Assembly: GCF_003815875.1 (NCBI RefSeq)
Contig: NZ_CP033924.1
Coordinates: 1,612,001 to 1,676,000, forward strand
Origin: Chryseobacterium lactis
GTDB taxonomy: Bacteria > Bacteroidota > Bacteroidia > Flavobacteriales > Weeksellaceae
Length of the DNA stretch: 64,000 nt
Reading direction: 5' to 3'
The notes beneath the pieces are model-generated. The model saw only the letters and a list, made by a program, of their open reading frames with translations, was not told the origin of the DNA and searched no databases. Numbering within the stretch: position 1 is the first letter of the stretch; every line of letters begins with the position of its first letter. The position numbers were made by a program, and so were the translations under genes. Shown here in pieces: positions 15,406 to 36,666 of the stretch.

Positions 15406-17667
15406 TTATTCTCTGTTTTTTACCAATACCCAACCGGAATATTTCGTTTCGGTATTGTTTTTATTATTTTCATTCCATGAAATAGTGTACCAGTATGTGC
15501 CTGTAGGAACTCTTTTCCCGGATGCCATTCCATCCCATGTGAAGTTTCTTACTTTGCCTGCTTCGTAAAGCTTGTTCCCGTATCTGTCATATACAATGAA
15601 GATCAGGTTCTTTTTGTAAGCTAAGGCAGAATAGTCGATAAAATCATTGATGTTGTCGCCATTAGGCGTGATTGCGTTCACAAGATTTGGGACTGTAATC
15701 TGAACTTCAACAGGAGGACAATTGTAGAAATCTTTTACAAAAACTCTTACTTCACCTCGTGCCAGACCTGTAAATATATTCGATGTCTGCCAGGTACCGC
15801 CATCTATTGAATATTGATACGGAGGTGTGCCTCCCGATACGTTAACGGTAATGGTATTGTGATTAATATCAATGCTTGAAATGACAGGATTAGGAGCTGC
15901 CAATACTTTTACAATCTGAGTGGTGATACAGTTTCCGGTTTTAAGTTTAACCCAATAAAGACCTACGCCTACATCTTTGATAGAAGGAGTTGTTTCTCCT
16001 GTGCTCCACTCATATCCGTTGAAGCCTGGTCCTGCATCCAAATCTGTTTTCTCACCGATACAAACCGTTTTATCTTTCAGTATCGCCGATTTTACCGGTG
16101 GTAGAACGATAAGATTTATTTTAGCAATAGCAAAACATCCATTGGAGTCAGTTACTTTTACATAAACGGCAGTGGTTGTCGACATGTACTGAAGGGAATT
16201 CATAATTTCATTAGTTCCGCTTAGTGCATCACTTACTGAAGTGTAATATTTTTTACTTGCACCGGTTGTTAATGAAGTAACATCCGCTGAGGTTAAATTA
16301 AAAATAGCGTTGGTTATATTATTTTCAATAAAACAAGATCGGAGAGTAGCTTCTTTTACAGGGGTTTCAGGATAGAAAGCCAGTGTTATTTTAGCAGTCC
16401 CTGTACATCCTTGTGGCGTTGTTACTTTCACATAGACCACTCCCGGAGCAGATAAATAATTATCAGGATACATGATCTCATTAGTATCTGCAGTCAGATC
16501 GCTTAATGTCTTATAATATTTTTTAACAACACCGGGAACATCGGTTACGGCTGCGCTATTCAGGTTGAAGGTGGCTGTTCCGGCTTTATTGTTATTGCAG
16601 GCAAGAATTGTTTTATCTTCTGCTTTAAAAGGCGCAATGGTCAACAGAATTTTTCCATCCGGGTTATCACACAATATTCCTGCATTATCTTTGATAACGA
16701 CAGTCACTGTCGTATTGGCATTGAATTGATAATTGGTCGGGTTAGCAATAGGAGTAGAACTTCCAAATGGATAATAAGTAAAGGTATAATTGGAAGGGTT
16801 ATTGACGAATTGAGAATTAAAACTGGTAAGATTTACACTGCCATATCCGGTACTTGGATTAGGGCAGAAGGATTGAGTCACTGAATTTTGTAAAATGGAA
16901 ACCTTATCCGTATAAATTTTTACGTTTTTAATTGAATGTCTAGATCTTGCACCGCCCGTAGAAGATGAAAATCCGAAATATCCAACAGTCATTGCAGCTG
17001 CCGTGCCTGAAGGAGCGAAAGACTGATTACAAATGACATTGCCATCCATAGTGATCTTTACGATCCAGTTCGTGGGAGCGGCCGGATCTACCTGTGCTGT
17101 CACTTCAACGTGCTTAAAGGTTGTTCCTTGGAAGGGTTGTGTGCTATTCAGATCAGGTGAATGAAATGAACTCCCCGGAACATTAAAGAATTCTACATTA
17201 TTGGTGTCGGTTGTATTTTGAACCTGTCCATAGGCAACATGGACTTTACTCATTGTTGTTGAGGTGGTATTGTTGTAAGAGTCGAATCCAACAATGAAAC
17301 CAACAGCATTTTGAGAAACTCCGATTCCGGAACCTAATACACTTGCAATAGGTGGGTTTGCCAGATACCAGAATGCAATTCCGTCTCCATTGTAATTTTG
17401 GTTAGAATCCATTCTAAAATCAAATTCTACTCTCCATTTATCACAATATTTCAAGTTGATTGGATCGTTCAGCCGGATGGATCCGGACTGGTCGTTAGTG
17501 TCAGCAGTGAGTTGAATAAAATCAGTATTTATCGCTGCTGTTGGGACTAACGTCCATCCAGTTGTATTGACGGGATTTCCGCTAAGCTGATAGGTTTGAG
17601 CTAGTGATAAGTTTCCCGATATAAAAAGTATAACTATAATAAAATTAACCAGTAGTTTTTTATTCAT
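15406..17667 (-). CDS. T9SS type B sorting-domain surface protein with L-type-lectin-like N-terminus
   Basis: A 753-residue paralog of the adjacent downstream gene, with the same length and the same opening AQTYQLSGNPVNTTGW after the signal peptide. A lectin-like domain (WRVEFDFRMDSNQNY, GDGIAFWYLANPP, HSIKNVKIYTD), internal repeats with CNNNKAGTATFNL, and a SPRB-like module PPYQYSIDGG follow. The type B C-terminal domain has NAITPNGDNINDF, VYDRYGNKLYEA and SGWVLVKNRE. Its C-terminal domain is closest by eye to that of the gene at 20108, not to its lectin-type neighbour. It is expected at the cell surface after type IX export. Role in adhesion is inference. Confidence 0.88.
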   Translation of the reverse strand: MNKKLLVNFIIVILFISGNLSLAQTYQLSGNPVNTTGWTLVPTAAINTDFIQLTADTNDQSGSIRLNDPINLKYCDKWRVEFDFRMDSNQNYNGDGIAFWYLANPPIASVLGSGIGVSQNAVGFIVGFDSYNNTTSTTMSKVHVAYGQVQNTTDTNNVEFFNVPGSSFHSPDLNSTQPFQGTTFKHVEVTAQVDPAAPTNWIVKITMDGNVICNQSFAPSGTAAAMTVGYFGFSSSTGGARSRHSIKNVKIYTDKVSILQNSVTQSFCPNPSTGYGSVNLTSFNSQFVNNPSNYTFTYYPFGSSTPIANPTNYQFNANTTVTVVIKDNAGILCDNPDGKILLTIAPFKAEDKTILACNNNKAGTATFNLNSAAVTDVPGVVKKYYKTLSDLTADTNEIMYPDNYLSAPGVVYVKVTTPQGCTGTAKITLAFYPETPVKEATLRSCFIENNITNAIFNLTSADVTSLTTGASKKYYTSVSDALSGTNEIMNSLQYMSTTTAVYVKVTDSNGCFAIAKINLIVLPPVKSAILKDKTVCIGEKTDLDAGPGFNGYEWSTGETTPSIKDVGVGLYWVKLKTGNCITTQIVKVLAAPNPVISSIDINHNTITVNVSGGTPPYQYSIDGGTWQTSNIFTGLARGEVRVFVKDFYNCPPVEVQITVPNLVNAITPNGDNINDFIDYSALAYKKNLIFIVYDRYGNKLYEAGKVRNFTWDGMASGKRVPTGTYWYTISWNENNKNNTETKYSGWVLVKNRE

Positions 17668-17831
17668 TTAAATGGGATTTAGATTAATATGTAAAGATAT
17701 TAAATCCTCTTAAATAAATGTGTACTTAATGTTAATTTTGTTAAAAAAATGTGTTTTTATTCAAAAAATAATATTTCTTAAGATGAAATAGTGAAAGTTA
17801 TTCGTTCAATTGAAGGTTTGTCTTAATTGAT

Positions 17832-18308
17832 TCAAAATAAGGAATTGCTATCGAGTCCCTCAAAATAGCTGTCAATTTCCAAATCGGGAGAGTTGGCTGC
17901 AGCCACTGCCAGTTTATCGCAAAGTTCATTTTCGAAATGGCCGGCATGCCCTTTTACCCAATGCATTTTGGGTGTATGCGTATTATAAAGCTCAATAAAT
18001 CTCTTCCACAGATCAGGATTTTTTACATTTTTCCAGCTTCTTTTAATCCAGCCTGAAATCCAGTTTTGATTAACGGCATCTGCTACATATTTACTGTCTG
18101 TATAAACATGAATATCATTTTCTGTAGACTTCAGTTTTTCCAACGCCGTAATGACGGCTAGAAGTTCCATCCTGTTGTTGGTGGTTTTTCGGAAGCCTTT
18201 GGAAAATGTTTTCTGATAGTTTTTTTCAGGTACGCGCATGAGGATGCCATATCCGCCTTTTCCGGGGTTTCCGCTGCATGCTCCATCGGTATAGATTTCG
18301 ATTCTCAA
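17832..18308 (-). CDS. rnhA: Ribonuclease HI
   Basis: A 158-residue RNase HI that cuts the RNA strand of RNA:DNA hybrids. The catalytic set is visible: Asp8 in YTDGACSGNPG, Glu48 in NRMELLAV, Asp71 in VYTDSKYV, His121 in WVKGHAGH and Asp131 in ENELCDKLA. The start is TTG at 18308; no in-frame ATG or GTG exists that would keep the first beta strand, and MRIEIYTDG matches the usual N-terminus, so TTG is chosen. It is 56 bases downstream of dnaB on the same strand and may be co-transcribed with it. Confidence 0.96.
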   Translation of the reverse strand: MRIEIYTDGACSGNPGKGGYGILMRVPEKNYQKTFSKGFRKTTNNRMELLAVITALEKLKSTENDIHVYTDSKYVADAVNQNWISGWIKRSWKNVKNPDLWKRFIELYNTHTPKMHWVKGHAGHFENELCDKLAVAAANSPDLEIDSYFEGLDSNSLF

Positions 18309-18364
18309 ATCTGCTTTATAAAAATTGAATTATTTATTTTTTTAACCCTCTTTACATGTTATGT

Positions 18365-19951
18365 TTAAAAAGGGAAGTCGTCATCGTCATCAAAATCGTT
18401 CATCGATGATCCTGAAAGTTTTGAACTATCCGGCAGATCAAATGCTGCCCCTGGTTGAATTGTTGTTTTAATTTTATCAAAGCCACTAGGTTCGCCGAAG
18501 TTAGATGGGTATCCACCACTGGCACCACCATCAAATGCAGCTTCAATATCTCCAAATTTTGCAAAATGTTTCAGGAAAGATAGTCTGACGTCCGCCGTGG
18601 CGCCATTTCTGTGTTTTGCAATAATCAATTCTGCCTGATTTTCAGTAGTTGTTTCCTGTCCTTCATCATCATTATCCCACACTGTAATTTTGTAGTATTC
18701 AGGTCTGAAAATGAAAGATACAATATCCGCATCCTGCTCAATCGCTCCGGATTCCCTAAGATCTGAAAGCTGAGGTCTTTTTCCAGGACGGGTTTCCACA
18801 CTTCTTGAAAGCTGGGAAAGTGCAATCACCGGAACATTCAATTCTTTTGCAATTGCCTTTAATGAACGTGAAATCATGGAAATCTCCTGTTCACGGTTTC
18901 CAACTCCTTTTCCTCCGCTTCCGGCTGTCATCAGCTGAAGGTAATCGACCATGATAAGCCTTACTCCATGCTGCATAACCAATCTTCGGCATTTTGCACG
19001 GAAGTCGAATATGGAAAGTGATGGTGTTTCATCAATATATAAAGGAGCGTTTTCCAATTCGGAAACATTAGAGAACAGCCTTTGCCATTCTTCGTCGTCA
19101 AGTGTTCCTTTTCGTAGTTTTTCAGAAGAAATTTTTGTTTCTGAAGCAATCATCCTTGTGATAAGCTGTACAGATGCCATCTCGAGAGAGAAAAGTGCCA
19201 TTGGGATTTTGTGTCCTACGGCGATATTTCTTGCCATTGACAAAAGAAATGCTGTTTTCCCCATCGCGGGACGAGCCGCAATGATGATAAGGTCAGAATT
19301 CTGCCATCCACCGGTTTCCTTGTCTATATCTCTAAATCCTGAAGGTACTCCGGAAAGTCCTTGCTTGTCTTTTAAAGATTTAATGGTATCAATAGCCTGC
19401 TTTACCAATGAGTTTGCCGTGTCAAAACCCTTTTTGATGGTTCCGTTCGTAATTTCGAAAAATGACTGTTCCGCTTTATCCAATAATTCAAAAACATCAG
19501 TAGACTCTTTATAGGAAGAGTCAATTACATTGGCAGAAACATTAATAAGACTTCTTAAAATATATTTTTCCAGAATAACACGGACATGATATTCAATGTG
19601 GGCAGATGAACTTACTCCCATTGTAAGGTCGATAATATAATGGTCGCCTCCGGCCTGACTAAGTTTATCTTCTTTTTTTAACTCCTGGATAATCGTCATT
19701 AAATCTACAGGATGGTTGCCTTCATAAAGCTTTAAGATACTGGAAAAAATAATCTGATGTCTGGGATCATAAAATACTTCCGAGGTCAGGAGGTCAATAG
19801 AGTGGTCAAGACCTTTTTTGTCAATCAAAAAAGTTCCGATAACAAGTCTTTCAAAATCCACTGCATTGGGAGGCATTTTTCCATCCGCAATAGACAATTC
19901 TTTTGCAAAGTTTCCGTGTGTAAGGGATGATAATGTTTCTTTCTGCGCCAT
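18365..19951 (-). CDS. dnaB: Replicative DNA helicase DnaB
   Basis: A 528-residue hexameric replicative helicase. The N-terminal domain starts PPNAVDFERLVIGTFLID. The RecA-like domain has Walker A AARPAMGKTAF (about residue 230), FSLEMASVQL, Walker B LIMVDYLQLM, ALSQLSRSVETR and DLRESGAIEQDAD, all standard DnaB motifs, with the Arg finger region before AELIIAKHRNG. The tail ends in an acidic FDDDDDFPF stretch like that of SSB-interacting proteins. It sits inside the T9SS surface-protein array with rnhA. A perfect TAnnTTTG box lies four bases before the ATG. Confidence 0.97.
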   Translation of the reverse strand: MAQKETLSSLTHGNFAKELSIADGKMPPNAVDFERLVIGTFLIDKKGLDHSIDLLTSEVFYDPRHQIIFSSILKLYEGNHPVDLMTIIQELKKEDKLSQAGGDHYIIDLTMGVSSSAHIEYHVRVILEKYILRSLINVSANVIDSSYKESTDVFELLDKAEQSFFEITNGTIKKGFDTANSLVKQAIDTIKSLKDKQGLSGVPSGFRDIDKETGGWQNSDLIIIAARPAMGKTAFLLSMARNIAVGHKIPMALFSLEMASVQLITRMIASETKISSEKLRKGTLDDEEWQRLFSNVSELENAPLYIDETPSLSIFDFRAKCRRLVMQHGVRLIMVDYLQLMTAGSGGKGVGNREQEISMISRSLKAIAKELNVPVIALSQLSRSVETRPGKRPQLSDLRESGAIEQDADIVSFIFRPEYYKITVWDNDDEGQETTTENQAELIIAKHRNGATADVRLSFLKHFAKFGDIEAAFDGGASGGYPSNFGEPSGFDKIKTTIQPGAAFDLPDSSKLSGSSMNDFDDDDDFPF

Positions 19952-19955
19952 GATG

Positions 19956-19963
19956 CAAAGATA
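19956..19963 (-). promoter_or_regulatory. TAnnTTTG -7 box directly before dnaB
   Basis: TATCTTTG on the minus strand, four bases before the dnaB ATG at 19951. Spacing predicts a very short or absent leader. No good -33 TTG is seen. Confidence 0.4.
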
Positions 19964-20054
19964 GTTTATTTAAAAAATATTTAAAAAATAGTATTCAACA
20001 AATTATGAGCAGTCTTTCCAAAAATGCTGTCAATAGGCGATTGGGTATGTTGAT

Positions 20055-20087
20055 AAAAAAATCACCTCAGATAGAGGTGATTTTTTT
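20055..20087 (-). terminator. Terminator after the third T9SS surface-protein gene
   Basis: A 14-bp stem whose outer arms are A and T runs around ATCACCTC / GAGGTGAT, with a 5-base loop. It would work in both directions; it ends the gene at 20108 before dnaB begins. Confidence 0.85.
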
Positions 20088-20107
20088 AGATATAATAAGA
20101 TAAAAAG

Positions 20108-22267
20108 TTATTCCTTGTTTTTTACCAATACCCATCCTGAATATTTGGTTTCAGTACTGTTTTTATCATTTTCGTTCCATGAAATGGTATACCAGTAAGT
20201 TCCTGTCAGGATCTTCTTACCGAAAGCTGTACCGTCCCATGTGAAGTTTCTTGTTCTGTTAGCTTCATAGAGCTTGTTTCCATATCTGTCATACACGGTG
20301 AATACAAGATTTTTCTTATAAGCTAATGCTGAATAATCGATGTAGTCGTTGATATTATCTCCGTTTGGTGTGATAGCATTGATCAGGTTAGGAACTGTAA
20401 CTGTAATCTGGATAGGGGTACAATTGTAGGTGTCCTTTACATAAATTGTATTCTCTCCTCTAGGTAATCCTGAGAAAGAATTCGAATCCTGCCATGTAAC
20501 ACCATCTACAGAATATTTATAAGGAGGTACTCCTCCTGTAGCTGTTACCGTGATATTATTATTGGTAATTTCAATATTGGTAATAACCGGTTGAAGGCTT
20601 GCACGTACATGTACTTCCTGAAGAGTAAAGCATTTTCCTGTCTGAAGTTTTACCCAATAAGCACCTACGCCAACGTTGCTGATAGATTGAGTAGTTTCTC
20701 CTGTGCTCCATTCGTAGCTTACAAATCCAGGACCTGCATCTAATGTTGTCTTATTTTCTGCGCAAATGGTTTTGTCTTTTAAAACCGCTGACTTTACCGG
20801 AGGTAAAACTTTCAGCGTGATTTTAGCAATCGAGTAGCAATGTTGGTCATTTTCAACTCTTACGTAAACGATTGTACTTTCTGAAATATAAGCTGACGGA
20901 TTTAAAATCGGGTTTGTTTGATTTTTAGCATCATCCAACGTTTTGTAATACTTGATTACGGTATTGGCTGGAATTGGGTTAGGCAAACCGATTGTTGCTT
21001 TGGTAAGATCAAATGTAGAACGGGTGATATCATTGTCAATATAACAGTTTTCAATAGTTGTATCGTTGATATTTACTGTTGCGAAGAATAATAATCTGAT
21101 GGTCGTTGTCGCTGTACATCCAAAATTTGAAATAACTTTTACATATACCGTAGCTTCCGGAGAAAGATAATTAACAGGATCAGTAATCTCGTTAGTGTCT
21201 GCATTCATATCGGCTACAGTAGGGTAGTATTTAATAGTTGCTCCGGCACCACCAAATACATTTGCTGTTGTTAAATCATATTTTGCTTTACCGGCTCCAT
21301 TATTATTACAGGAATATAGGGTTGCTGTATTGGCAGTAATGCTGGCATCTACAAATTTGAATTTTCCGGTTATGAAACATCCGTTGATCGGATTGTCCGG
21401 ATTATTCGGATCCTTATATACCACTCTGTAATAATAGGTTGTTGTTCCATTTACTGTTGCGATGGTAAGCGGGTTGTTTCCTGTAAGTGCATCGTTGGTA
21501 TTGGTGTGATAAGATACGTTGAAGTTAACATCGTTTCCATTAATAATCCCCGCGCTAAGCGTTGAGAAATTAAATTGTGTAGGTAATCCACAAACCATCA
21601 CCTGACTTGGATCATTGGCATCTGCAGCTGGAATCCCAGGGGTAATAAATGGATTAGGGGAAAGAACCGGATCGTTAAATGCGGAACTTAAACTTGCCGT
21701 ACCTGACCATATCATAGAAAAACCTTTCGCTGTACTACGGTAGTTGTCAATGATCAGATAATAAGTTTCACCTGCCAAAACATTCATATAAGGACTCCAT
21801 TTGGTTGAGCCAACATTCATATCAGCCGTGTTGCCAGGAGGGTTAACCGGGAATACTGCCGGTGGCGGCATGGTTAAGTCCAGTCCAGTATCGCCGGATG
21901 TCCCAGAGAAGTTACATCTGATAGGTTGTTTGAAAATATATTGAATAGGATCCTCCATTAAACCGGCACATCCTGTTGAGGTAGGCCCGTATACCGCAAA
22001 ATCATAATCATCAGTCTGTTGATTTGGTTTGATGGTGAATGCAAGAGTTCCTGAAGTTGCTGCAGTAAAGGTGTACCATACTGATAAGTTTTCATTGGAA
22101 TTTAAACATCCTCCGTGTTGTTTTAGGATTTCCTGAATAAGGCCATGATCAGGCGGGTTATAGGAAATGTCAGAGTTACCACAAATTGGAATTGCTGAAA
22201 CACAGTCAGATTGTGAATAAACAGCCTGTGTTATAAATAAAATTAAAAAGAGTAGTATTTTTTTCAT
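20108..22267 (-). CDS. T9SS type B sorting-domain surface protein
   Basis: A 719-residue secreted protein with a signal peptide ending near YSQSDC. The N-terminal ~200 residues (DCVSAIPICGNSDISY, SVWYTFTAATSGTLAF, YDFAVYGP, GETYYLIIDNY) form a jelly-roll-like domain shared with the gene at 22366 but not with the lectin-type pair. Later come CNNNGAGKAKYDL repeats, a SPRB-like module PPYKYSVDGV and the type B C-terminal domain NAITPNGDNINDY, VYDRYGNKLYEA, SGWVLVKNKE. That last domain is closest by eye to the gene at 15406. Expected at the cell surface; ligand or partner unknown. Confidence 0.88.
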   Translation of the reverse strand: MKKILLFLILFITQAVYSQSDCVSAIPICGNSDISYNPPDHGLIQEILKQHGGCLNSNENLSVWYTFTAATSGTLAFTIKPNQQTDDYDFAVYGPTSTGCAGLMEDPIQYIFKQPIRCNFSGTSGDTGLDLTMPPPAVFPVNPPGNTADMNVGSTKWSPYMNVLAGETYYLIIDNYRSTAKGFSMIWSGTASLSSAFNDPVLSPNPFITPGIPAADANDPSQVMVCGLPTQFNFSTLSAGIINGNDVNFNVSYHTNTNDALTGNNPLTIATVNGTTTYYYRVVYKDPNNPDNPINGCFITGKFKFVDASITANTATLYSCNNNGAGKAKYDLTTANVFGGAGATIKYYPTVADMNADTNEITDPVNYLSPEATVYVKVISNFGCTATTTIRLLFFATVNINDTTIENCYIDNDITRSTFDLTKATIGLPNPIPANTVIKYYKTLDDAKNQTNPILNPSAYISESTIVYVRVENDQHCYSIAKITLKVLPPVKSAVLKDKTICAENKTTLDAGPGFVSYEWSTGETTQSISNVGVGAYWVKLQTGKCFTLQEVHVRASLQPVITNIEITNNNITVTATGGVPPYKYSVDGVTWQDSNSFSGLPRGENTIYVKDTYNCTPIQITVTVPNLINAITPNGDNINDYIDYSALAYKKNLVFTVYDRYGNKLYEANRTRNFTWDGTAFGKKILTGTYWYTISWNENDKNSTETKYSGWVLVKNKE

Positions 22268-22328
22268 TGTTAAAATGATTTTTGTGAAACAAATTTTGCG
22301 AAATAATTTTTTATCATTTTGTGAAGAG

Positions 22329-22353
22329 TAAAAGCCGCCAAGAGCGGCTTTTA
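22329..22353 (-). terminator. Terminator after the fourth T9SS surface-protein gene
   Basis: A perfect 10-bp stem TAAAAGCCGC / GCGGCTTTTA with a 5-base loop, 12 bases past the stop codon at 22366. Confidence 0.82.
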
Positions 22354-22365
22354 ATTATTATAAAA

Positions 22366-24456
22366 TTACTCTCTGTTTTTTACAATCACCCATCCGGAGA
22401 ATTTGAAAGGAGTATTCTTTTTATCATTCTCATTCCAGGTTAAGGAATACCAGTAAGTACCAGTAGGTATTTTTTTACCGGCAATTGTTCCGTCCCATTT
22501 ATATCCGTTGGATTTATCTGCCTGGTGGATTTTAGCACCATATCTGTCAAAGATAGTTAAAACCAGGTTTTGTTTGTCTGCAATCGCAGAATAATCGATC
22601 ACATCATTTACACCATCTCCGTTGGGAGTGATCAGATTAATCAGATTTGGAACCAATACTGAAATTTCAATAGGGTCGCAATCATATGAATCTTTTACAT
22701 ATAATTTATAGCTACCTCTTGCAAGATTACCGAATACGTTGGAGGTCTGCCAGTTAATATTGTCCATTGAATACTGGTAGTCAGGAGTTCCACCTATGAC
22801 ATTAACTGTCAATGTATTATTTGAAATATCAATACTCGTAACTACAGGTTGCTCAGATGGATATATTTTAACTGTTTGAGTCGTGATACATTCTCCGGTT
22901 TTCAATTTTACCCAGTATGTTCCTACTCCTACATTGGTGATCGATTGCGTCGTTGCGCCGGTACTCCATTCATAGCTCTTGAATCCCGGGCCGGCATCCA
23001 ATGTTGTTTTATCTTCAATACAGATGATTTTATCTTTTAAAACCTCTGATTTTACAGGAGGCATTACCGTTAAGGTAATTTTAGCCACCGAATAACATCC
23101 TCTGTTGTCAGATACTCTCACATATACTACACCGTTTGGAGCAATATAATTGGATGCATTTAATATTTCATTAGTTCCGTCTACTGCATCCAGTAAAGAA
23201 GGGAAGAATCTTTTAGTGGTTGTTCCTGCCTGGTTGGTTACTGCTGCATTGTTTAGATTAAATAGACCTGTTGACGGGTTGGTTTCCAGGAAACAAGCTC
23301 TTAAAGCAGCATCATTTACTGGTACTAATGCATAGAACTTTAATGTAATTTCTGCTGTCGCAAAACATCCGTATTGATTGGTCGCTTTTACAAAAGCAGA
23401 TCCTTCAGCAGAAACATACTGATAAGGATTAGTTATCTCATTGATACCGTTATTAAGATCATACATTGAAGGGTAGTACTTTAATACATGAGTTGGATCG
23501 GCACCTACAGTCGCTGTTGTTAAATCATACATCGCTGTTCCCGAATTGTTGTTGCTGCATGAGGTGAGCGTTGCCGGATTCAGGGTAAATGATTTATCCA
23601 AAAACTTAATATCTCCAAATTCTCTACATTGATTCAGGAAGCTGATAGGGCTGTTTGGATCTACATAGGTAATGGCATATTTATAACTGGTAGTCGTATT
23701 TACAGAAATCGGTGTGGTAATAGGGTCATAATCATTCATAGCATCTACGGCACTATGATAGTATTTGATCACAAAATTAGGGTTGTTATTTCTGATTAGG
23801 TTTGATAATGTAGAAAAATCAAAATTTACAGGGTTTCCGCAAATAGGAATCTCACCATTTTGAGTTGGGCCAGGCTGTATAAAAGGATTTGGCTGGTAAA
23901 TCTGTGCAGTATTATGATCAAATGGTGTCAGCAAGGTAGCGGTTCCTCCAAATGTTAATTTAAATGGGGAAACCTCATCAGAATAGTTATTTAAAAGTAA
24001 ATGATATACTTGTCCGGGAAGTACGTCGATATATTTTACAAAACCGTCACCACCACCATCTTCAGTAGTATCTGTAGAGGTCATATTAAGACCCGTAAGA
24101 GGAGGTGTGATTGATGAAAATAGTCCTGCATAAGAACATCTTAATGGGGTTTCTGTAATGTTGGCGCAGCTGTGATTTGGTCCATATAGAGCGAAGTCAT
24201 AATCAATGGTAGGAGCGGTAGGGCCGGTTGGTGTCAGGAGAAATGTTAATGTTCCTGCGGTTTGTATGCTGAATGTAAGCCAGATGGAGTTACTTTCTTT
24301 GCTTAAGCAACCACTTCCTTCTGCTACTGTTCCAGTTCCGTTTGGTTTTAGTGAGATCTCAGAGTCACTGCAGATCGGGATGGCAGTGATGCAATCCTGC
24401 TGCGCAAAAACCATTTGGGTGATGAAAATTAGAAAAATCAGTAGATATTTTTTCAT
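22366..24456 (-). CDS. T9SS type B sorting-domain surface protein
   Basis: A 696-residue secreted protein, signal peptide ending near VFAQQDC. Its N-terminal domain (DCITAIPICSDSEISL, SIWLTFSIQTAGTLTF, YDFALYGP, GQVYHLLLNNY) is like that of the gene at 20108. Internal repeats with CSNNNSGTAMYDL and VYVRVSDNRGCYS follow, then DYQYSMDNINW and the type B domain NLITPNGDGVNDV, IFDRYGAK and FSGWVIVKNRE. The C-terminal domain is closest to that of the gene at 13016. It is the first of the array on the transcribed strand and follows the TPR-like gene by about 40 bases. Confidence 0.88.
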   Translation of the reverse strand: MKKYLLIFLIFITQMVFAQQDCITAIPICSDSEISLKPNGTGTVAEGSGCLSKESNSIWLTFSIQTAGTLTFLLTPTGPTAPTIDYDFALYGPNHSCANITETPLRCSYAGLFSSITPPLTGLNMTSTDTTEDGGGDGFVKYIDVLPGQVYHLLLNNYSDEVSPFKLTFGGTATLLTPFDHNTAQIYQPNPFIQPGPTQNGEIPICGNPVNFDFSTLSNLIRNNNPNFVIKYYHSAVDAMNDYDPITTPISVNTTTSYKYAITYVDPNSPISFLNQCREFGDIKFLDKSFTLNPATLTSCSNNNSGTAMYDLTTATVGADPTHVLKYYPSMYDLNNGINEITNPYQYVSAEGSAFVKATNQYGCFATAEITLKFYALVPVNDAALRACFLETNPSTGLFNLNNAAVTNQAGTTTKRFFPSLLDAVDGTNEILNASNYIAPNGVVYVRVSDNRGCYSVAKITLTVMPPVKSEVLKDKIICIEDKTTLDAGPGFKSYEWSTGATTQSITNVGVGTYWVKLKTGECITTQTVKIYPSEQPVVTSIDISNNTLTVNVIGGTPDYQYSMDNINWQTSNVFGNLARGSYKLYVKDSYDCDPIEISVLVPNLINLITPNGDGVNDVIDYSAIADKQNLVLTIFDRYGAKIHQADKSNGYKWDGTIAGKKIPTGTYWYSLTWNENDKKNTPFKFSGWVIVKNRE

Positions 24457-30329: not shown

Positions 30330-33300
30330 ATGCAATTAAAATCCATTAACGAAAAGTTTCTTCCTGATTTGATGCAAAAAGAATTCGGGAAAGAAATCTT
30401 CAACCAGTTAGAAGATAACCAGCATATTACTGTGAAAGGAAGTGCAGGATCTTCAGTTTCTATTTTCGTGGCTGAGCTTTTTTTGGTTCAAAAGAAAAAT
30501 ATTCTTTATCTGGTAGATGATAAGGAAGATGCATTATATGCCAATACGGAGATGGAAGATTTGCTTGGGAAAGAAAAAGTTCTTTACTTTCCGGCAACAC
30601 ATCTTGAGCCTTATCAGGTTGAAAAAACACAAAATGCTAACCTGGTTCTGAGAACAGAGGTTTTAAATAAAATCAATGCTGGAAGATCTCCAAAAGTCAT
30701 CATAGCGTATGCGGGTGCTTTATCTGAAAAAGTATTAAAGAAGGAAGATTTTAAAGCGATTTCTCATCATATTAAAGTAGGAGATCAGTTAGATTTTGAT
30801 TTTATAGATGAATTGCTCAATCATTATCACTTTCAACAGTCGGATTTCGTGTCGGAACCCGGTGAGTTTTCTGTAAGAGGAGGAATTGTAGACGTATTTT
30901 CTTATTCATATGAGAAGCCATACCGAATTACTTTCTTTGGAAATGAGGTGGAAAGTATCAAAACATTTGATATAGAAACACAACTTTCCGTAGAGAAAGT
31001 AAAAGACTTCCAACTGGTCTCAAACATGAATTTTTCTGTAACGGGAAGTAGGGTGTCTTTGCTTCAGTTGCTGCCGAAAGAAAGCTATGTCATCTCCAGA
31101 AACGGAATGGTAGGCATGCAGAAGATCAAATCCTTCTATGAAAAGTCTCTTGAAAAATATGAGACCTTGAATAAAGACATTGCCCACAGAACTCCTCAGG
31201 AACTTTTTATTTCAGATCAGGAATTCTTATTTGATTTTAAAAAGTTTAAGACAGTTGATTTTGGAAATGCTGCGATCGAAGGATTAAAGGAAATTACCGA
31301 AATTAAAATGGAGCAGCTTCCACAGCCTTCTTTCCATAAAAACTTTGAGCTTCTGATTGAAGATATCGAGGAAAAGCAAAATGCAGGATTTGATACATGG
31401 ATTTCTTTTTCCACCGAAAAACAAAAAGAAAGACTTGAATCTATTTTTGAAGAACTGGAACATGAGCTTCCTTTTAAAAGCTTTAAGTCAGAGCTTCATG
31501 AAGGTTTTGTCGATAATGGTCATAAAATATTAGTATATACTGATCATCAGATTTTTGACCGTTACCAACGATATAAGGCTAAAAATACTTTTGCGAAATC
31601 GGAGCAACTCACTCTGAAAGATTTAATGTCTTTAAAGATTGGAGATTATATTGCCCATATTGATCACGGGATCGGAAAGTTTATGGGCTTGGTTAAAGTA
31701 AATAATGATGGTAAAATTCAGGAATGCTTTAAACTGACTTATAAAAATGGAGATCTGTTATATGTAAGTATCCACTCACTGCATAAGATTTCAAAGTTTA
31801 ATGGTCCTGACGGAAAGGAGATTGTCCTGAGTAAATTAGGATCTCCTACCTGGAAGTCTTTAAAACAAAAGACAAAGGCAAAAGTGAAACAGATTGCTTT
31901 TGATCTTATTCAATTATATGCTCAAAGAAAAACAGCAAAAGGATTTGCTTATACACCTGATTCTTATTTGCAAAATGAGTTGGAAGCGAGCTTTATCTAC
32001 GAAGATACTCCCGATCAGGAAAAGGCAACCATTGATGTGAAGAAAGATATGGAGGCCGATACGGTGATGGATAGATTGGTTTGTGGAGATGTAGGTTTCG
32101 GTAAAACAGAGGTGGCAATCAGAGCCGCATTTAAAGCGGCGACGGATGGAAAACAGGTTGCGATACTGGTTCCCACTACAATCCTGGCATTTCAACATTA
32201 CAGAAGTTTCAAAGAGAGATTGAAAGATTTTCCGGTTAATGTGTCTTATGTGAACCGATTCAGGACTGCTAAGCAAAAGTCAGAAACACTGGATGATCTG
32301 AAAAACGGGAAAGTTGATATTATTATTGGTACCCATCAATTGGTGAGCAGTTCGGTGAAGTTTAAAGATTTAGGATTGTTGATTATTGATGAAGAACATA
32401 AATTCGGAGTTTCGGTAAAAGATAAGCTTAAGACCCTGAAAAATAATGTGGATACTTTAACGCTTACTGCGACACCTATACCGAGGACTTTGCAGTTTTC
32501 TTTGATGGCTGCAAGAGATTTGTCCGTAATTAAAACGCCACCGCCAAACAGACAGCCGGTAGATACACAACTTATCGGATTCAATGAAGAAATTCTTCGT
32601 GATGCGGTTTCGTATGAACTTCAGAGAGACGGACAAGTCTATTTTATTAACAACAGAATTGAAAATCTGAAAGATATTGCAGGACTCATTCAGAGATTGG
32701 TTCCGGATGCGAGGGTTATCACCGGCCACGGCCAAATGGAAGGCAGGCAGCTTGAAAAGAATGTCCTCGATTTTATGGAAGGAAAATATGACGTCCTTGT
32801 TTCCACAACGATTGTAGAAAGTGGGGTGGATGTACCGAATGCTAATACCATTTTTATTAACGATGCCCAAAGATTCGGTATGGCAGATCTTCACCAGATG
32901 AGAGGAAGGGTTGGACGAAGTAACAGAAAGGCGTTCTGCTATCTGATTACTCCTCCTTATGATATGATGACTTCTGATGCGAGAAAGCGTCTGGAAGCGA
33001 TTGAACAGTTTTCAGATTTGGGAAGCGGCTTCCAGATTGCAATGAAAGATCTTGAAATCCGTGGAGCCGGTGATTTGCTGGGAGCGGAGCAAAGTGGTTT
33101 TATTAATGAAATGGGATTTGAAACCTATCAGAAATTGATGCAGGAAGCACTTGAAGAACTGAAAGATGATGCTGATTTTGAAAACTTATTTGACAATGAA
33201 GAAGACCGTCAGAAGCTATTTAAATCTGTGAAAGATGTAAATATCGATACGGATTTAGAATTGATGTTACCGGATTCATATATCTCCAATACGGAGGAAA

Positions 33301-33689
33301 GATTGCTGTTGTATCAGAAAATTGCAGAGATTGATAATGAAAAAGACCTTCATCAGTTTGAACTTGAATTGATTGACCGTTTTGGAGCATTGCCGAAAGA
33401 AGCGATCAACCTTTTAAAAAGTGTTGCATTAAAATGGCTTGCTTCAGATATAGGTTTTGAAAAGATTGTGATGAAAAACGGAGTCTTTTTAGGCTACTTC
33501 CCAAGTAATCCGCAGGATAAGTTTTATCAGACGGACAGATTCAGGCACATCATTCATTATTTAACGAAGAATCCTGCCGAAGCTCAGCTTAAAGAGAAAT
33601 CGGGTAAAGAAGGTAATCAATTGATGATGAGAAAGGAAAAGGTGAAGAATGTAGATGAGGTCAATGCGTTATTAAAGTCAATGATTTGA
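30330..33689 (+). CDS. mfd: Transcription-repair coupling factor
   Basis: A 1119-residue Mfd, which removes RNA polymerase stalled at DNA damage and recruits UvrA. The N-terminal UvrB-like part, the RNA-polymerase-interacting (CarD-like) domain IGDYIAHIDHGIGKFMG (about residues 432-448), helicase Walker A GDVGFGKTEVA (about 586), LLIIDEEHKFG, TLTATPIPRTL, STTIVESGVDVPNA and QMRGRVGRSNRKA are all visible, then the C-terminal TRCF domain. The gene is complete, but its last 21 codons lie in a 63-base direct repeat of which the second copy is 1.8 kb downstream. This copy ends LLKSMI; the other ends LLKAIIAHD. It converges on the next gene with five bases between stop codons and has no terminator of its own. 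Confidence 0.97.
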   Translation: MQLKSINEKFLPDLMQKEFGKEIFNQLEDNQHITVKGSAGSSVSIFVAELFLVQKKNILYLVDDKEDALYANTEMEDLLGKEKVLYFPATHLEPYQVEKTQNANLVLRTEVLNKINAGRSPKVIIAYAGALSEKVLKKEDFKAISHHIKVGDQLDFDFIDELLNHYHFQQSDFVSEPGEFSVRGGIVDVFSYSYEKPYRITFFGNEVESIKTFDIETQLSVEKVKDFQLVSNMNFSVTGSRVSLLQLLPKESYVISRNGMVGMQKIKSFYEKSLEKYETLNKDIAHRTPQELFISDQEFLFDFKKFKTVDFGNAAIEGLKEITEIKMEQLPQPSFHKNFELLIEDIEEKQNAGFDTWISFSTEKQKERLESIFEELEHELPFKSFKSELHEGFVDNGHKILVYTDHQIFDRYQRYKAKNTFAKSEQLTLKDLMSLKIGDYIAHIDHGIGKFMGLVKVNNDGKIQECFKLTYKNGDLLYVSIHSLHKISKFNGPDGKEIVLSKLGSPTWKSLKQKTKAKVKQIAFDLIQLYAQRKTAKGFAYTPDSYLQNELEASFIYEDTPDQEKATIDVKKDMEADTVMDRLVCGDVGFGKTEVAIRAAFKAATDGKQVAILVPTTILAFQHYRSFKERLKDFPVNVSYVNRFRTAKQKSETLDDLKNGKVDIIIGTHQLVSSSVKFKDLGLLIIDEEHKFGVSVKDKLKTLKNNVDTLTLTATPIPRTLQFSLMAARDLSVIKTPPPNRQPVDTQLIGFNEEILRDAVSYELQRDGQVYFINNRIENLKDIAGLIQRLVPDARVITGHGQMEGRQLEKNVLDFMEGKYDVLVSTTIVESGVDVPNANTIFINDAQRFGMADLHQMRGRVGRSNRKAFCYLITPPYDMMTSDARKRLEAIEQFSDLGSGFQIAMKDLEIRGAGDLLGAEQSGFINEMGFETYQKLMQEALEELKDDADFENLFDNEEDRQKLFKSVKDVNIDTDLELMLPDSYISNTEERLLLYQKIAEIDNEKDLHQFELELIDRFGALPKEAINLLKSVALKWLASDIGFEKIVMKNGVFLGYFPSNPQDKFYQTDRFRHIIHYLTKNPAEAQLKEKSGKEGNQLMMRKEKVKNVDEVNALLKSMI
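33615..33677 (+). repeat. Direct repeat of the mfd 3' end, left copy
   Basis: 63 bases inside the mfd 3' end that match 35395-35457 with a single mismatch (G at 33668, A at 35448). The next nine bases still agree at six positions, so the two copies look like diverged homologous gene ends, not a short chance repeat. It functions here as the C-terminal coding end of mfd. Confidence 0.93.
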
Positions 33690-33694
33690 GTTAT

Positions 33695-34150
33695 TTAAGG
33701 TGTTGGTTTATATATTAACACCTTGTTTTTGATTTCAAGTTTTTTACCATATTTTTTTGCAAATAATTGTTTAAGTTTTGTGACATCATTTCCTCCACTT
33801 GGAACTTTAGAAGAAACAATAAATCCGAAAATGAGATCTTTCTTTAACAAAAGTTGATCAGTTAAATGTTTTATTGTTTCTATAATTTGATTAAATGCTT
33901 TTTCAATATCACTTCCTTTAAGCTCAACAAAATAAAATTCAGTTTTTGATTCTTTACATTCGGAATCTCTAATAAATAAAAAGTCACATTTTTCTATTGA
34001 CTTAGATGTGATTATGCAGTCATCAATTCTTGCTTTTAAGTAAACTTCTGTACACTCTATTTGATATTTTTTTCCTTTTTCGATTGCTGTTCGACTAAAT
34101 TCGCTACATGAAGAATATGTGCCCTTAAATCTCTTAATTTTATCCTTCAT
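33695..34150 (-). CDS. PD-(D/E)xK nuclease-like partner of the AAA ATPase
   Basis: A 151-residue protein from the ATG at 34150 (a TTG at 34162 would add four residues). It has a restriction-nuclease-like signature: KCDFLFI with Asp56, then FYFVELKG with Glu76 and Lys78, the D...ExK pattern of PD-(D/E)xK folds. This is followed by a helix-rich IEKAFNQIIETIKHL and a strand IFGFIVSSKVP. The family is not named; the nuclease call is inference from that motif. It overlaps the ATPase gene by 11 bases, so translation is probably coupled. It lies within the AT-rich insert next to mfd. Confidence 0.6.
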   Translation of the reverse strand: MKDKIKRFKGTYSSCSEFSRTAIEKGKKYQIECTEVYLKARIDDCIITSKSIEKCDFLFIRDSECKESKTEFYFVELKGSDIEKAFNQIIETIKHLTDQLLLKKDLIFGFIVSSKVPSGGNDVTKLKQLFAKKYGKKLEIKNKVLIYKPTP

Positions 34151-35321
34151 ATCTAATATCAATTAATTGGTCGGCTTGTTCTGATAGTATATCTGAAGCG
34201 CTATCAATAGCACTTATGTTTATGTTTTTAAGTTCATCGTCATTTAATGTGATTGATTTTCCATCCTTTATTTCATAAACAGATATTTGTTTATAATCGA
34301 TCCATAGTCCCTCATTAATAATTTTATTGATTTCTTCTTTTCTTTTTGTGTTTTCATTATATGCATTTTTGGCTAGGATTAAATTATTAAATGCGGATAA
34401 TATATATGGGCTATGTGTAGGAATTACTATTCTAGCTTTGCTTTTATTGAAAAGGTTAACAATATATTCAATTAATTCCTTTTGTCTTACGGGAAATAAA
34501 CTTATTTCTGGTTCTTCAATTACAATGCATTTAATGAAAGTTTCTTTATTAGATTGAATTAAAATGTAATTTAATACTAATAATAAAGGTAAGACCGATT
34601 GGATTCCACTTGAAGCTTGATTCAAATCAATTTTTTTATTATTATGAACAATATGTTCATTTTCATCATTATAATGGTAGTCAAAACTTAGACTATCATA
34701 TTTAAGAGATTTTATTGCTTCTTTAGCTTTGTCATAAATAGCTGCGAAATCTTTATAGCTTTGAGATATATTTATATTATTAGCCCAGAGCCCAGCTAAT
34801 GAATTCCCAGCCATTGAAAATGTTATTCTTTCTGTAGGTATATAGAGAGGAAGATTATAATGCACAAGACTTTGTAGATCTATAAAAGTTTCTTTTAATT
34901 CTTCGAATGATAATTTTAAATCAGATATTTGTTTTGATAAATCACTATCATTTATAACTATAGAGTCTTTAAGTAAATTATTATACTTCTGTTGAAGATT
35001 ATGCAATTTTTTCTCATTAAGTTGTAGTCCTTTGAAATTATTGTTTTTTATTTTATTATCATTTATTTCTATATAATCATCACCAATAGAATATTTTATA
35101 TAACTCTCTTTTTTTAGATAGGAAATGTTAAATTTTTTTAAATGTTCTTTAAAATTACTAATAGTTTTAATTCCTTTGAACGCTACTTCATTAAATATTA
35201 CTGATAATTTAGCAATTACACTTTTTCCTGTTGATGTATCACCAATAAGAATAACATATTTATTTAGTTCAATTTCAATGTCAGCTATAGGGCCAAAATT
35301 TTTTATAATTAGTTTTTCCAT
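34140..35321 (-). CDS. AAA ATPase (OLD/RecF-like, AAA_15/AAA_21 type)
   Basis: A 393-residue ABC-type ATPase. It begins EKLIIKNFGPIADIEIELN, the usual RecF/OLD-like first strands, with Walker A GDTSTGKS (residues 27-34), a coiled middle, the signature-like ASSGIQSVLPLLL, Walker B CIVIEEPEISLFP (about 266-278) and the switch IPTHSPYIL. No TOPRIM domain is attached, unlike OLD nucleases; the nuclease function may be supplied by the overlapping downstream gene. I chose the ATG at 35321; a TTG at 35342 overlaps a promoter box. ATPases of this kind with a small effector are common in phage-defence systems (for example Septu, PARIS, RloAB), but this pair is not one I can name. Confidence 0.8.
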   Translation of the reverse strand: MEKLIIKNFGPIADIEIELNKYVILIGDTSTGKSVIAKLSVIFNEVAFKGIKTISNFKEHLKKFNISYLKKESYIKYSIGDDYIEINDNKIKNNNFKGLQLNEKKLHNLQQKYNNLLKDSIVINDSDLSKQISDLKLSFEELKETFIDLQSLVHYNLPLYIPTERITFSMAGNSLAGLWANNINISQSYKDFAAIYDKAKEAIKSLKYDSLSFDYHYNDENEHIVHNNKKIDLNQASSGIQSVLPLLLVLNYILIQSNKETFIKCIVIEEPEISLFPVRQKELIEYIVNLFNKSKARIVIPTHSPYILSAFNNLILAKNAYNENTKRKEEINKIINEGLWIDYKQISVYEIKDGKSITLNDDELKNINISAIDSASDILSEQADQLIDIRYEG

Positions 35322-35339
35322 TTTAATTTTATACTGATA

Positions 35340-35347
35340 CAAATATA
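35340..35347 (-). promoter_or_regulatory. TAnnTTTG -7 box for the ATPase/nuclease pair
   Basis: TATATTTG on the minus strand, 18 bases before the ATG at 35321 and inside the insert, so the pair appears to carry its own promoter. It overlaps an alternative TTG start, which supports the ATG. Confidence 0.4.
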
Positions 35348-35394
35348 TTAAGTCCTGTCATTATTTTTGGTTTTTAATTTAATAAAATTAGAAC

Positions 35395-35457
35395 AATCAA
35401 TTGATGATGAGAAAGGAAAAGGTGAAGAATGTAGATGAGGTCAATGCATTATTAAAG
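35395..35457 (+). repeat. Direct repeat of the mfd 3' end, right copy
   Basis: Second copy of the 63-base repeat, one mismatch from 33615-33677. It marks the right edge of the insert. Confidence 0.93.
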
Positions 35458-35478
35458 GCCATAATTGCCCACGATTAA
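35398..35478 (+). pseudogene. mfd: Displaced 3' end of mfd
   Basis: In the mfd frame this stretch reads QLMMRKEKVKNVDEV, then NALLKAIIAHD and a TAA stop. It is the tail of an mfd gene without any upstream body, separated from the complete mfd by the 1.8-kb insert. The old mfd-type terminator lies 42 bases further on. It is most simply the original chromosomal end of mfd. It has no start or promoter of its own that I can see. Confidence 0.85.
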
Positions 35479-35520
35479 AATATCATTTTAATATCCTTTA
35501 AATTTTTTCGTAAAATTCAA

Positions 35521-35554
35521 AAAACATATAAAAACTTAAGTTTTTATATGTTTT
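35521..35554 (+). terminator. 34-base palindromic terminator, originally of mfd
   Basis: A perfect inverted repeat (arms of 17 bases, centre CTTAAG at 35535-35540) ending in a T run on the plus strand. Its place just after the displaced mfd end suggests it ended mfd transcription before the insertion. Confidence 0.8.
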
Positions 35555-35828
35555 TTTGTGATTGTTGTCATTTTTCACCTGAAAAATATTCATTACAAAG
35601 AGAATTAATAGGCTTTTAACACCCTTAAAATCACCTTTTAATGATTAAAAATAATAGGCAATCGCCTGTACAGAAAGGGTTTGAAGTGTCTTGTTATTTC
35701 AAATCGAGATGAAAAGTAGAGTTATGTAGTAATAATTCTACTTTTTTGTGTGATTAATTCTATGTCGTAATACGTTTATTTCTATGGGTTTAGAATAAAT
35801 AACTGGAATTTTTTCGATTTTGAATTTG
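35555..35828 (+). other. Intergenic stretch with an orphan terminator-like hairpin
   Basis: No protein gene is supported here. A plus-strand hairpin AAAAGTAGA / TCTACTTTT (35712-35745, 16-base loop) ending in a T run lies about 160 bases beyond the mfd terminator, with no gene between them. This would fit the 3' end of a small RNA or a read-through stop before the next operon. I do not recognise an RNA family. Confidence 0.35.
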
Positions 35829-35847: not shown

Positions 35848-36666
35848 ATGAAAAAAATTATATACTGCACGGCTGGATTTCTTTCGTTCTTTGCCAACGC
35901 ACAAGTGGGCATCGGGACTCCAAAACCAAAATCAACTCTCGATGTAAATGGAAAGACGACTTTAAGAAAAGAACTTAGAGTAGGCGGGACCTCAACTCAG
36001 GCTGGAAATGCCGGTTTGAACGGTCAGGTTTTAGTTTCCCAGGGAGAAGGCAAATCTCCTGTTTGGAAATCATTGAATGTTTCCTTTATGGAAGAGGGGC
36101 AATACAAATTGATCAATTCGTATTTGTCATCGGATCAGACTGGTATTATAACACTTTCTAACGGTGTTGCAGGTGATAATGTCTACAAAAACAGTGTTGG
36201 AGATGATATTACGGATGGCGCCAAAGGTAAGTGGGTGAAAATTGCTGGTCTTGAAAATAATTTCACTATTAAAAACGGAAAAAACAGGCTTACTTATCAG
36301 TTCCAGACCGGAATTGAAATGAAAGCACCGGTATCTACTACTTCAGAAAATGTAAGATTTGCATGTGGAGTTTTCAGAAACGGGAAGCTGGTAGCCGTAC
36401 GTCCGGACAGAGTCGCTTCCAATAACAATTCTGAAAAGGAAGGTCTCATGGATTATATTTTTACACTCAATTATACAGAACTTAATGTTCCGGTCGGAAT
36501 ACAAAAACTTGAAATTGCATGTAGAAAAATTACTACCTCAAATTCAAATTCGCAGTTTTCCATAGGACGTGATGTTCAAAGTTCTAATGGTGCCGCCAAT
36601 GCATTTACATTGGAATCTACCATGAAGATCGATGTTATTGAATATGTAACTTATAAATCCAACTAA
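35848..36666 (+). CDS. Secreted VGI/LDVNG protein, paralog 1
   Basis: A 272-residue secreted protein. A signal peptide ends near FFANAQVG. The mature N-terminus QVGIGTPKPKSTLDVNGKTT is a motif widespread in Flavobacteriia secreted proteins, often beside tail-fibre-like repeats. QVLVSQGEGKSPVWKSL follows, then a C-terminal beta-rich domain with KWVKIAGLENNFTI, YQFQTGIEMKA and FACGVFRNGKLVAVR, like jelly-roll or C1q/TNF-type folds in style. It is the first of three tandem paralogs with gaps of 4 and 9 bases. Function unknown. Confidence 0.8.
   Translation: MKKIIYCTAGFLSFFANAQVGIGTPKPKSTLDVNGKTTLRKELRVGGTSTQAGNAGLNGQVLVSQGEGKSPVWKSLNVSFMEEGQYKLINSYLSSDQTGIITLSNGVAGDNVYKNSVGDDITDGAKGKWVKIAGLENNFTIKNGKNRLTYQFQTGIEMKAPVSTTSENVRFACGVFRNGKLVAVRPDRVASNNNSEKEGLMDYIFTLNYTELNVPVGIQKLEIACRKITTSNSNSQFSIGRDVQSSNGAANAFTLESTMKIDVIEYVTYKSN

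Follow-up and report, generated by a model that had tools for sequence, protein, structure and literature searches.

We describe a compact insertion at the 3' end of mfd in Chryseobacterium lactis, lying within a 64,000-nucleotide stretch of contig NZ_CP033924.1 (hereafter the window), in which a predicted ATPase and nuclease gene pair stands between two copies of the mfd coding end. Insertion at mfd, and the recurrence of its architecture, are well supported. We believe that such units are best read as non-autonomous cassettes flanked by attachment sites, whose movement probably depends on a recombinase supplied in trans, a reading to which we give about an even chance, with the decay of larger elements and homologous insertion as live rivals.

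The mfd gene (30330..33689, plus strand) encodes 1119 amino acids by its open reading frame (ORF), ending in NALLKSMI. A 72-nt sequence at its 3' end (33615..33686, plus strand) recurs at 35395..35466 on the same strand, a period of 1,780 nt, with 68 of the 72 positions identical, including all of the first 53 on the 5' side. A first-pass annotation, made by a model from the letters alone, had pointed to a 63-base recurrence with a single mismatch, and 33615-33677 and 35395-35457 do agree at 62 of 63 positions, the mismatch falling at repeat position 54. Searched with 121 nt of the mfd end, the 5,618,212-base, single-contig genome gives these two places only, the second at E 6.5e-26. Translated in the mfd frame, the right copy reads NQLMMRKEKVKNVDEVNALLKAIIAHD and then a stop, which ends at 35478, giving the AIIAHD terminus that the annotation had read there. 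A perfect palindrome follows it, also as annotated, at 35519..35556 (plus strand); it measures 38 nt, with 19-nt arms, rather than the 34 first given, and we take it as the ancestral mfd terminator, a palindrome standing in the corresponding position behind mfd in the relatives displayed. From the first mismatch to the stop (33668..33689, plus strand) the left copy carries a different tail, probably supplied by the cassette, through which the functional mfd reads on in frame to its KSMI end, so that the 3' end of the target gene is rebuilt. The functional gene had been thought to lack a terminator; it has a terminator-like hairpin at 33696..33725 (plus strand) followed by TTTTTGATTT, immediately behind it, inside the insert and overlapping the end of the nuclease gene, and the fold of 33684-33740 reaches -17.1 kcal/mol with a z of -5.07.

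The relatives indicate which of the two ends is old. We located mfd, by a homologue of its C-terminus, in 173 of 173 genomes of the genus sample. Leaving the window's own aside, 60 of the remaining 172 were used for a comparison of what lies 3' of mfd, over 12 kb downstream (6.5 kb in one). Every one of the 60 has a single mfd end with no second copy in the fetched flank, the best chance score being 16.5 (window repeat: 62), and no ATPase or nuclease gene like those of the insert was found in these flanks. Their mfd products end in AIIEHN in 31 cases and fit (A/T)II.H. in 54, and none ends in KSMI. In all of them the first gene behind mfd is a homologue of the gene that in the window is first behind the right copy (35848..36666, plus strand, at position 370 after the right-copy stop); it starts mostly about 373 nt past the mfd stop (range 119-694) and serves as the synteny anchor for the empty site. 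Because all 60 relatives run from mfd straight into this homologue, the right copy is the ancestral end with its spacer and terminator, and the left copy bears a different tail. The annotation's proposal that the ancestral end was displaced by some 1.8 kb, a different end now completing the gene, is thus supported by the empty site in these genomes. As a separate observation, mfd of one complete genome (G145, locus L149, around 4935-4963) seems to be disrupted around residue 1000 by a change of frame, its tblastn pieces lying in two frames.

The insert itself, from the left mfd stop to the right copy, spans 1,705 nt with a GC content of 24.8% against 36.2% for the window. It holds two minus-strand genes. 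The first encodes an AAA_15 ATPase (34140..35342; 400 aa as an ORF, 393 aa as a database entry; Pfam E 2.4e-19) whose best PADLOC model is PDC-M29A (E 3.8e-33) and whose PDB profile matches include PtuA and OLD, with AriA among further ATPase matches. The second encodes a probable PD-(D/E)XK-type nuclease (33695..34162; 155 aa as an ORF, 151 aa as a database entry) with PDC-M29B as best PADLOC model (E 3.1e-7). Four of its residues, D56, E76, K78 and Q88, are invariant across 24 homologues and contain the D...ExK catalytic motif of the PD-(D/E)XK family. The pair thus matches the PADLOC candidate PDC-M29 and, judged from these family matches, would be a defence operon of anti-phage type. ORFs, Pfam and PADLOC show no recombinase, conjugation or transposase gene and no relic genes in the insert, which agrees with the annotation's remark that an integrase is missing. 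We rejected a transposon or insertion-sequence origin: there is no transposase, and the 72-nt coding repeat exceeds the usual target duplications, which are far shorter. In metagenomes, the longest contig is 1,779 nt both for P0003, a relative of the ATPase (52%), and for P0122, a relative of the nuclease (64%), a length close to the 1,780-nt period of the insert; the two contigs are possibly one molecule, perhaps circular.

The architecture recurs with other cargo. In a family sample of 320 genomes (G numbers, with G000 the window's own genome), a profile of the mfd end detects that end in 283, and three of these, G000, G248 and G278, have two mfd ends, spaced less than 2 kb apart in each and with different cargo each time. 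Between the ends G278 carries an NYN-domain gene in opposite orientation (period 909 nt), and G276, near G278, has an empty mfd site; G248 carries an ATPase_2-domain gene with a period of about 1.37 kb and a decayed second copy. Second matches in G026, G028, G131, G148 and G159 were set aside as stretches of about 26-35 nt elsewhere in the genome. Across the order the same approach reached the mfd end in 78 of 395 genomes, which belong almost without exception to the window's own family, and there the profile is too narrow; in one other genus, mfd itself could be placed in all 31 of the 31 genomes.

The same arrangement is found at lysS and aspS. A search with the insert ATPase, which at E 1e-25 occurs in 4 of 320 family genomes (its own counted), pointed to G157 and G224. 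In both, lysS has a PDC-M29-like pair immediately behind it, and beyond the pair the lysS end appears a second time; the G224 insert has just 21 nt of spare DNA ahead of the ATPase and some 4 nt beyond the nuclease. A lysS-end profile detects the end in 315 of the 320 genomes and two ends in eight at E 0.001. One of these, G296, is an assembly overlap, two contigs sharing a 55-nt end. Of the seven real cases, six are integrase-free and span 0.8-2.2 kb, and the seventh, G241, has an integrase and 5.7 kb. Two genomes come on top: G157, whose second copy scores E 0.0017, and G091, which by alignment carries the insertion of G055. Besides the paired ATPase and nuclease of G157 and G224, the lysS cargo comprises a methyltransferase (G036), type IX secretion tail proteins (G055 with G091, and G140), HigBA (G283) and a putative lipoprotein without a Pfam match (G319). 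The NYN cargo of G278, found in 4 of 242 genomes, led to three new loci, among them G243, where it lies behind aspS between 72-nt copies of the aspS end that are 94% alike. In all, integrase-free insertions of 0.8-2.2 kb were seen at gene ends twice at mfd besides the window, seven times at lysS and once at aspS. The annotation had taken mfd to be an integration or exchange site in this lineage and had suggested looking for other cargo between the repeats; mfd as an integration site is supported by the presence of such cargo in G278 and G248 and by the return of the arrangement at lysS and aspS.

Part of this cargo resembles defence genes. Among the 11 integrase-free insertions a PADLOC match below 1e-10 was obtained for six (PDC-M29 in G000, G157 and G224; HEC-09 in G278 and G243; PD-Lambda-2 in G283), a weak one for G248 (1.2e-6), and none for the cargo of G036, G055, G140 and G319. 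Ascertainment matters for these counts, since it was defence-like cargo that led to G157, G224 and G243, and G000 was the starting case; the seven found through the gene end alone (G278, G248, G036, G055, G140, G283 and G319) give two strong matches, one weak and four without. In a control of ten window proteins nine had no match, and mfd matched helicase models. Candidate or known defence systems are matched by part of the gene-end cargo, a family match being no proof of defence.

Four insertions have a relative with an empty site, and there the junctions could be compared; the site counts take in the flanks, in which any insertion would show the pattern. In three of the four the left copy begins as native sequence and turns foreign in its downstream part, the right copy is the reverse, and the switch falls within the identical stretch: G278 (69 sites consistent, 4 not; stretch of 36 nt), G055 (91 and 0; 36 nt) and G224 (85 and 3; 23 nt). 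A circle that joined by a single site-specific crossover would produce such a pattern. As background, among 716 ORF ends in 864 kb of the window's genome, mfd is the sole strong match without upstream similarity; the other strong matches are paralogue-like, and another three with lower scores (23.5-28, where mfd reaches 62) resemble recurrent protein motifs. A second scan of 1,015 ORF ends in 110 fetched loci, which centre on mfd, lysS or the ATPase and are not random, returned the lysS and mfd cases, the end of the gene neighbouring the G319 insertion, one paralogue and nothing else; the cases of G157, G241 and G248 are absent from its matches, and the window was scanned apart. Within the window, large minus-strand genes at 15406-24453 encode CHU_C type IX secretion tails (three were scanned) and give paralogous gene-end repeats.

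How might such a unit arrive? In the reading that we prefer, a compact cassette would consist of the ATPase and nuclease operon plus a copy of the mfd 3' end, and would enter the mfd end through a single crossover within the gene end that both have in common. The ancestral end would then lie, with its terminator, 1.78 kb downstream, and mfd would gain the cassette's tail and terminator. The intermediate would be circular and measure about 1-2 kb, and full elements using the same gene ends would supply in trans a site-specific recombinase, probably of the tyrosine type. In the family genomes searched one full element with a recombinase was found, at lysS, and none at mfd. The lysS element (G241, locus L188, 2144-7256; 5.7 kb) encodes a tyrosine recombinase, a helix-turn-helix (HTH) protein and a G2P-like replication protein, and its left edge is a 30-nt identical stretch followed by a diverged yet coding LysRS end. 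The element looks phage- or plasmid-like, and its diverged copy of the lysS end replaces about 80 LysRS codons. More tentatively, and as a claim that we find possible and short of probable, the 3' ends of mfd, lysS and aspS in this family may be attachment sites of an integron-like cassette system whose 1-2 kb circles, each with a single operon, often for defence, and nothing else but a gene-end site, are moved by a recombinase in trans.

Several observations weigh against trans-mobilized cassettes. At mfd the genomes searched gave no recombinase; viral contigs gave no match to the mfd-end or lysS-end patterns or to the G241 integrase, and weak phage and plasmid matches to the gene ends were judged to be chance, with no element carrying these ends. 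Two of the three further NYN loci (G231 and G186) have no gene-end repeat within 1.5 kb. The repeats range from 46 to more than 212 nt, and that of G319, much longer and 98% alike, extends over the 3' untranslated region (UTR) and the terminator and takes in the last part of the neighbouring convergent gene; this insertion may be a different kind of event. The junction of G036 is not resolved (43 sites consistent, 10 not), in G140 the native copy of the two ends is not distinguishable, and the second copies in G157 and G248 are too decayed for the crossover to be judged. In Flavobacterium, a PDC-M29-like cassette lies directly behind dnaK in 8 of 11 loci and has a dnaK-end-like stretch upstream of it in three; we did not accept these loci as cases, the cassettes being flanked by terminator hairpins only and by no duplicated dnaK coding end. 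In four of the Flavobacterium loci (L116, L120, L123 and L125) the hairpins before and behind the cassette are identical or nearly so, and in Flavobacterium psychroterrae (L117, 5919-7226) a tyrosine recombinase gene lies upstream of the dnaK-end-like stretch, in an island, which suggests the dnaK 3' end as another integration site.

The rival that survives best is decay: an integrase-bearing island or prophage at mfd would have been reduced to one selected operon and its two attachment sites. Cis-mobilizable elements (CIMEs) are described as such leftovers in the part of PMC5704250 available to us, integrase elements use lysS both here (G241) and, from the accessible text of PMC4701971, in streptococci, and the decayed second copies in G157 and G248 would fit. 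Yet whole-genome searches for second ends returned mfd and lysS pairs that all span less than 6 kb, with one integrase and no half-decayed larger element, the window repeat retains 53 identical bases, and the insert has no relic genes; we regard decay as a serious though unlikely account. Alternatively, cargo and an adjoining piece of gene end, for example from a relative, could have been joined by ordinary homologous recombination with no dedicated recombinase. The variable repeat lengths and the G319 repeat that reaches the neighbouring gene fit such events, and homologous recombination therefore stays a live rival. Where the junction is resolved, however, the identical stretches measure just 23-53 nt, and insertions return time after time to a handful of genes, the 716 ORF ends having given no other strong non-paralogous case; we consider this origin quite improbable. 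Assembly error or chance rearrangement is very improbable indeed: G296 is admittedly a contig-overlap artefact, but the window's genome is one 5.6 Mb contig, the insert is AT-rich, its ATPase occurs in other family genomes and the architecture recurs with other cargo.

To our knowledge, the movement of single small defence systems without visible mobility genes is poorly explained, and anti-phage genes spread fast. If units of 1-2 kb that stand between rebuilt essential-gene ends are a recurrent class, they offer a concrete, testable route for the spread of defence genes, and duplicated housekeeping-gene ends would then be a search handle for new defence systems that is independent of similarity to those already known. 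Searches of open-licence literature on integrase-free units, on mfd or lysS as sites and on PDC-M29 turned up no account of this arrangement among the papers listed, which is no proof of its absence. The insert pair resembles defence systems of the Septu, OLD and PARIS type in its AAA_15-type ATPase, with matches to PtuA, OLD and AriA, and in its small nuclease-like partner; it differs in that the partner matches PDC-M29B and not PtuB, TOPRIM or AriB. We know of no activity for PDC-M29, and a search of open-licence literature for its name gave no paper.

As mobile units, the insertions can be set beside integron gene cassettes, in which compact cargo with one recombination site is moved by a recombinase encoded elsewhere. 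The likeness lies in the compact cargo and single site, the difference in the site, here the coding end of a housekeeping gene, and in that no attC site or integron integrase is known here, no search aimed at either having been made; a cassette system of this kind, if true, would be integron-like exchange using the coding ends of essential genes in place of attC sites. Autonomous elements that integrate at gene 3' ends share with the mfd insert the rebuilding of the gene end and differ in bringing a recombinase of their own. In Riemerella anatipestifer, the accessible part of PMC6764341 describes a 10K genomic island with 53-bp direct repeats, a tyrosine integrase and experimental evidence of precise integration and excision; that island resembles the mfd insertion in its direct repeats and differs in its tRNA-Arg target, its 10 kb and its own integrase. 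Streptococcal integrative and conjugative elements (ICEs) have the 3' ends of housekeeping genes, lysS among them, as integration sites, with direct repeats of 12-54 bp, according to the sections of PMC4701971 at hand; they share the lysS 3'-end target and the gene-end repeats with the units described here and differ in being conjugative with their own recombinases, and mfd does not occur in the text of that paper. CIMEs are elements that have lost their integration and transfer genes and kept attL and attR, as set out in the available text of PMC5704250. The mfd insert has the two attachment-site-like copies with no integration or transfer genes between them; as to descent from something larger, it contains no relics, and no larger relative lies at mfd in the genomes searched. 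Both are integrase-free DNA between two copies of an attachment site at a gene 3' end, but CIMEs, from the same part of that source, are decayed ICEs or integrative and mobilizable elements (IMEs), whereas the units here are each one operon with almost no other DNA, no sign of transfer genes and varied cargo at several genes.

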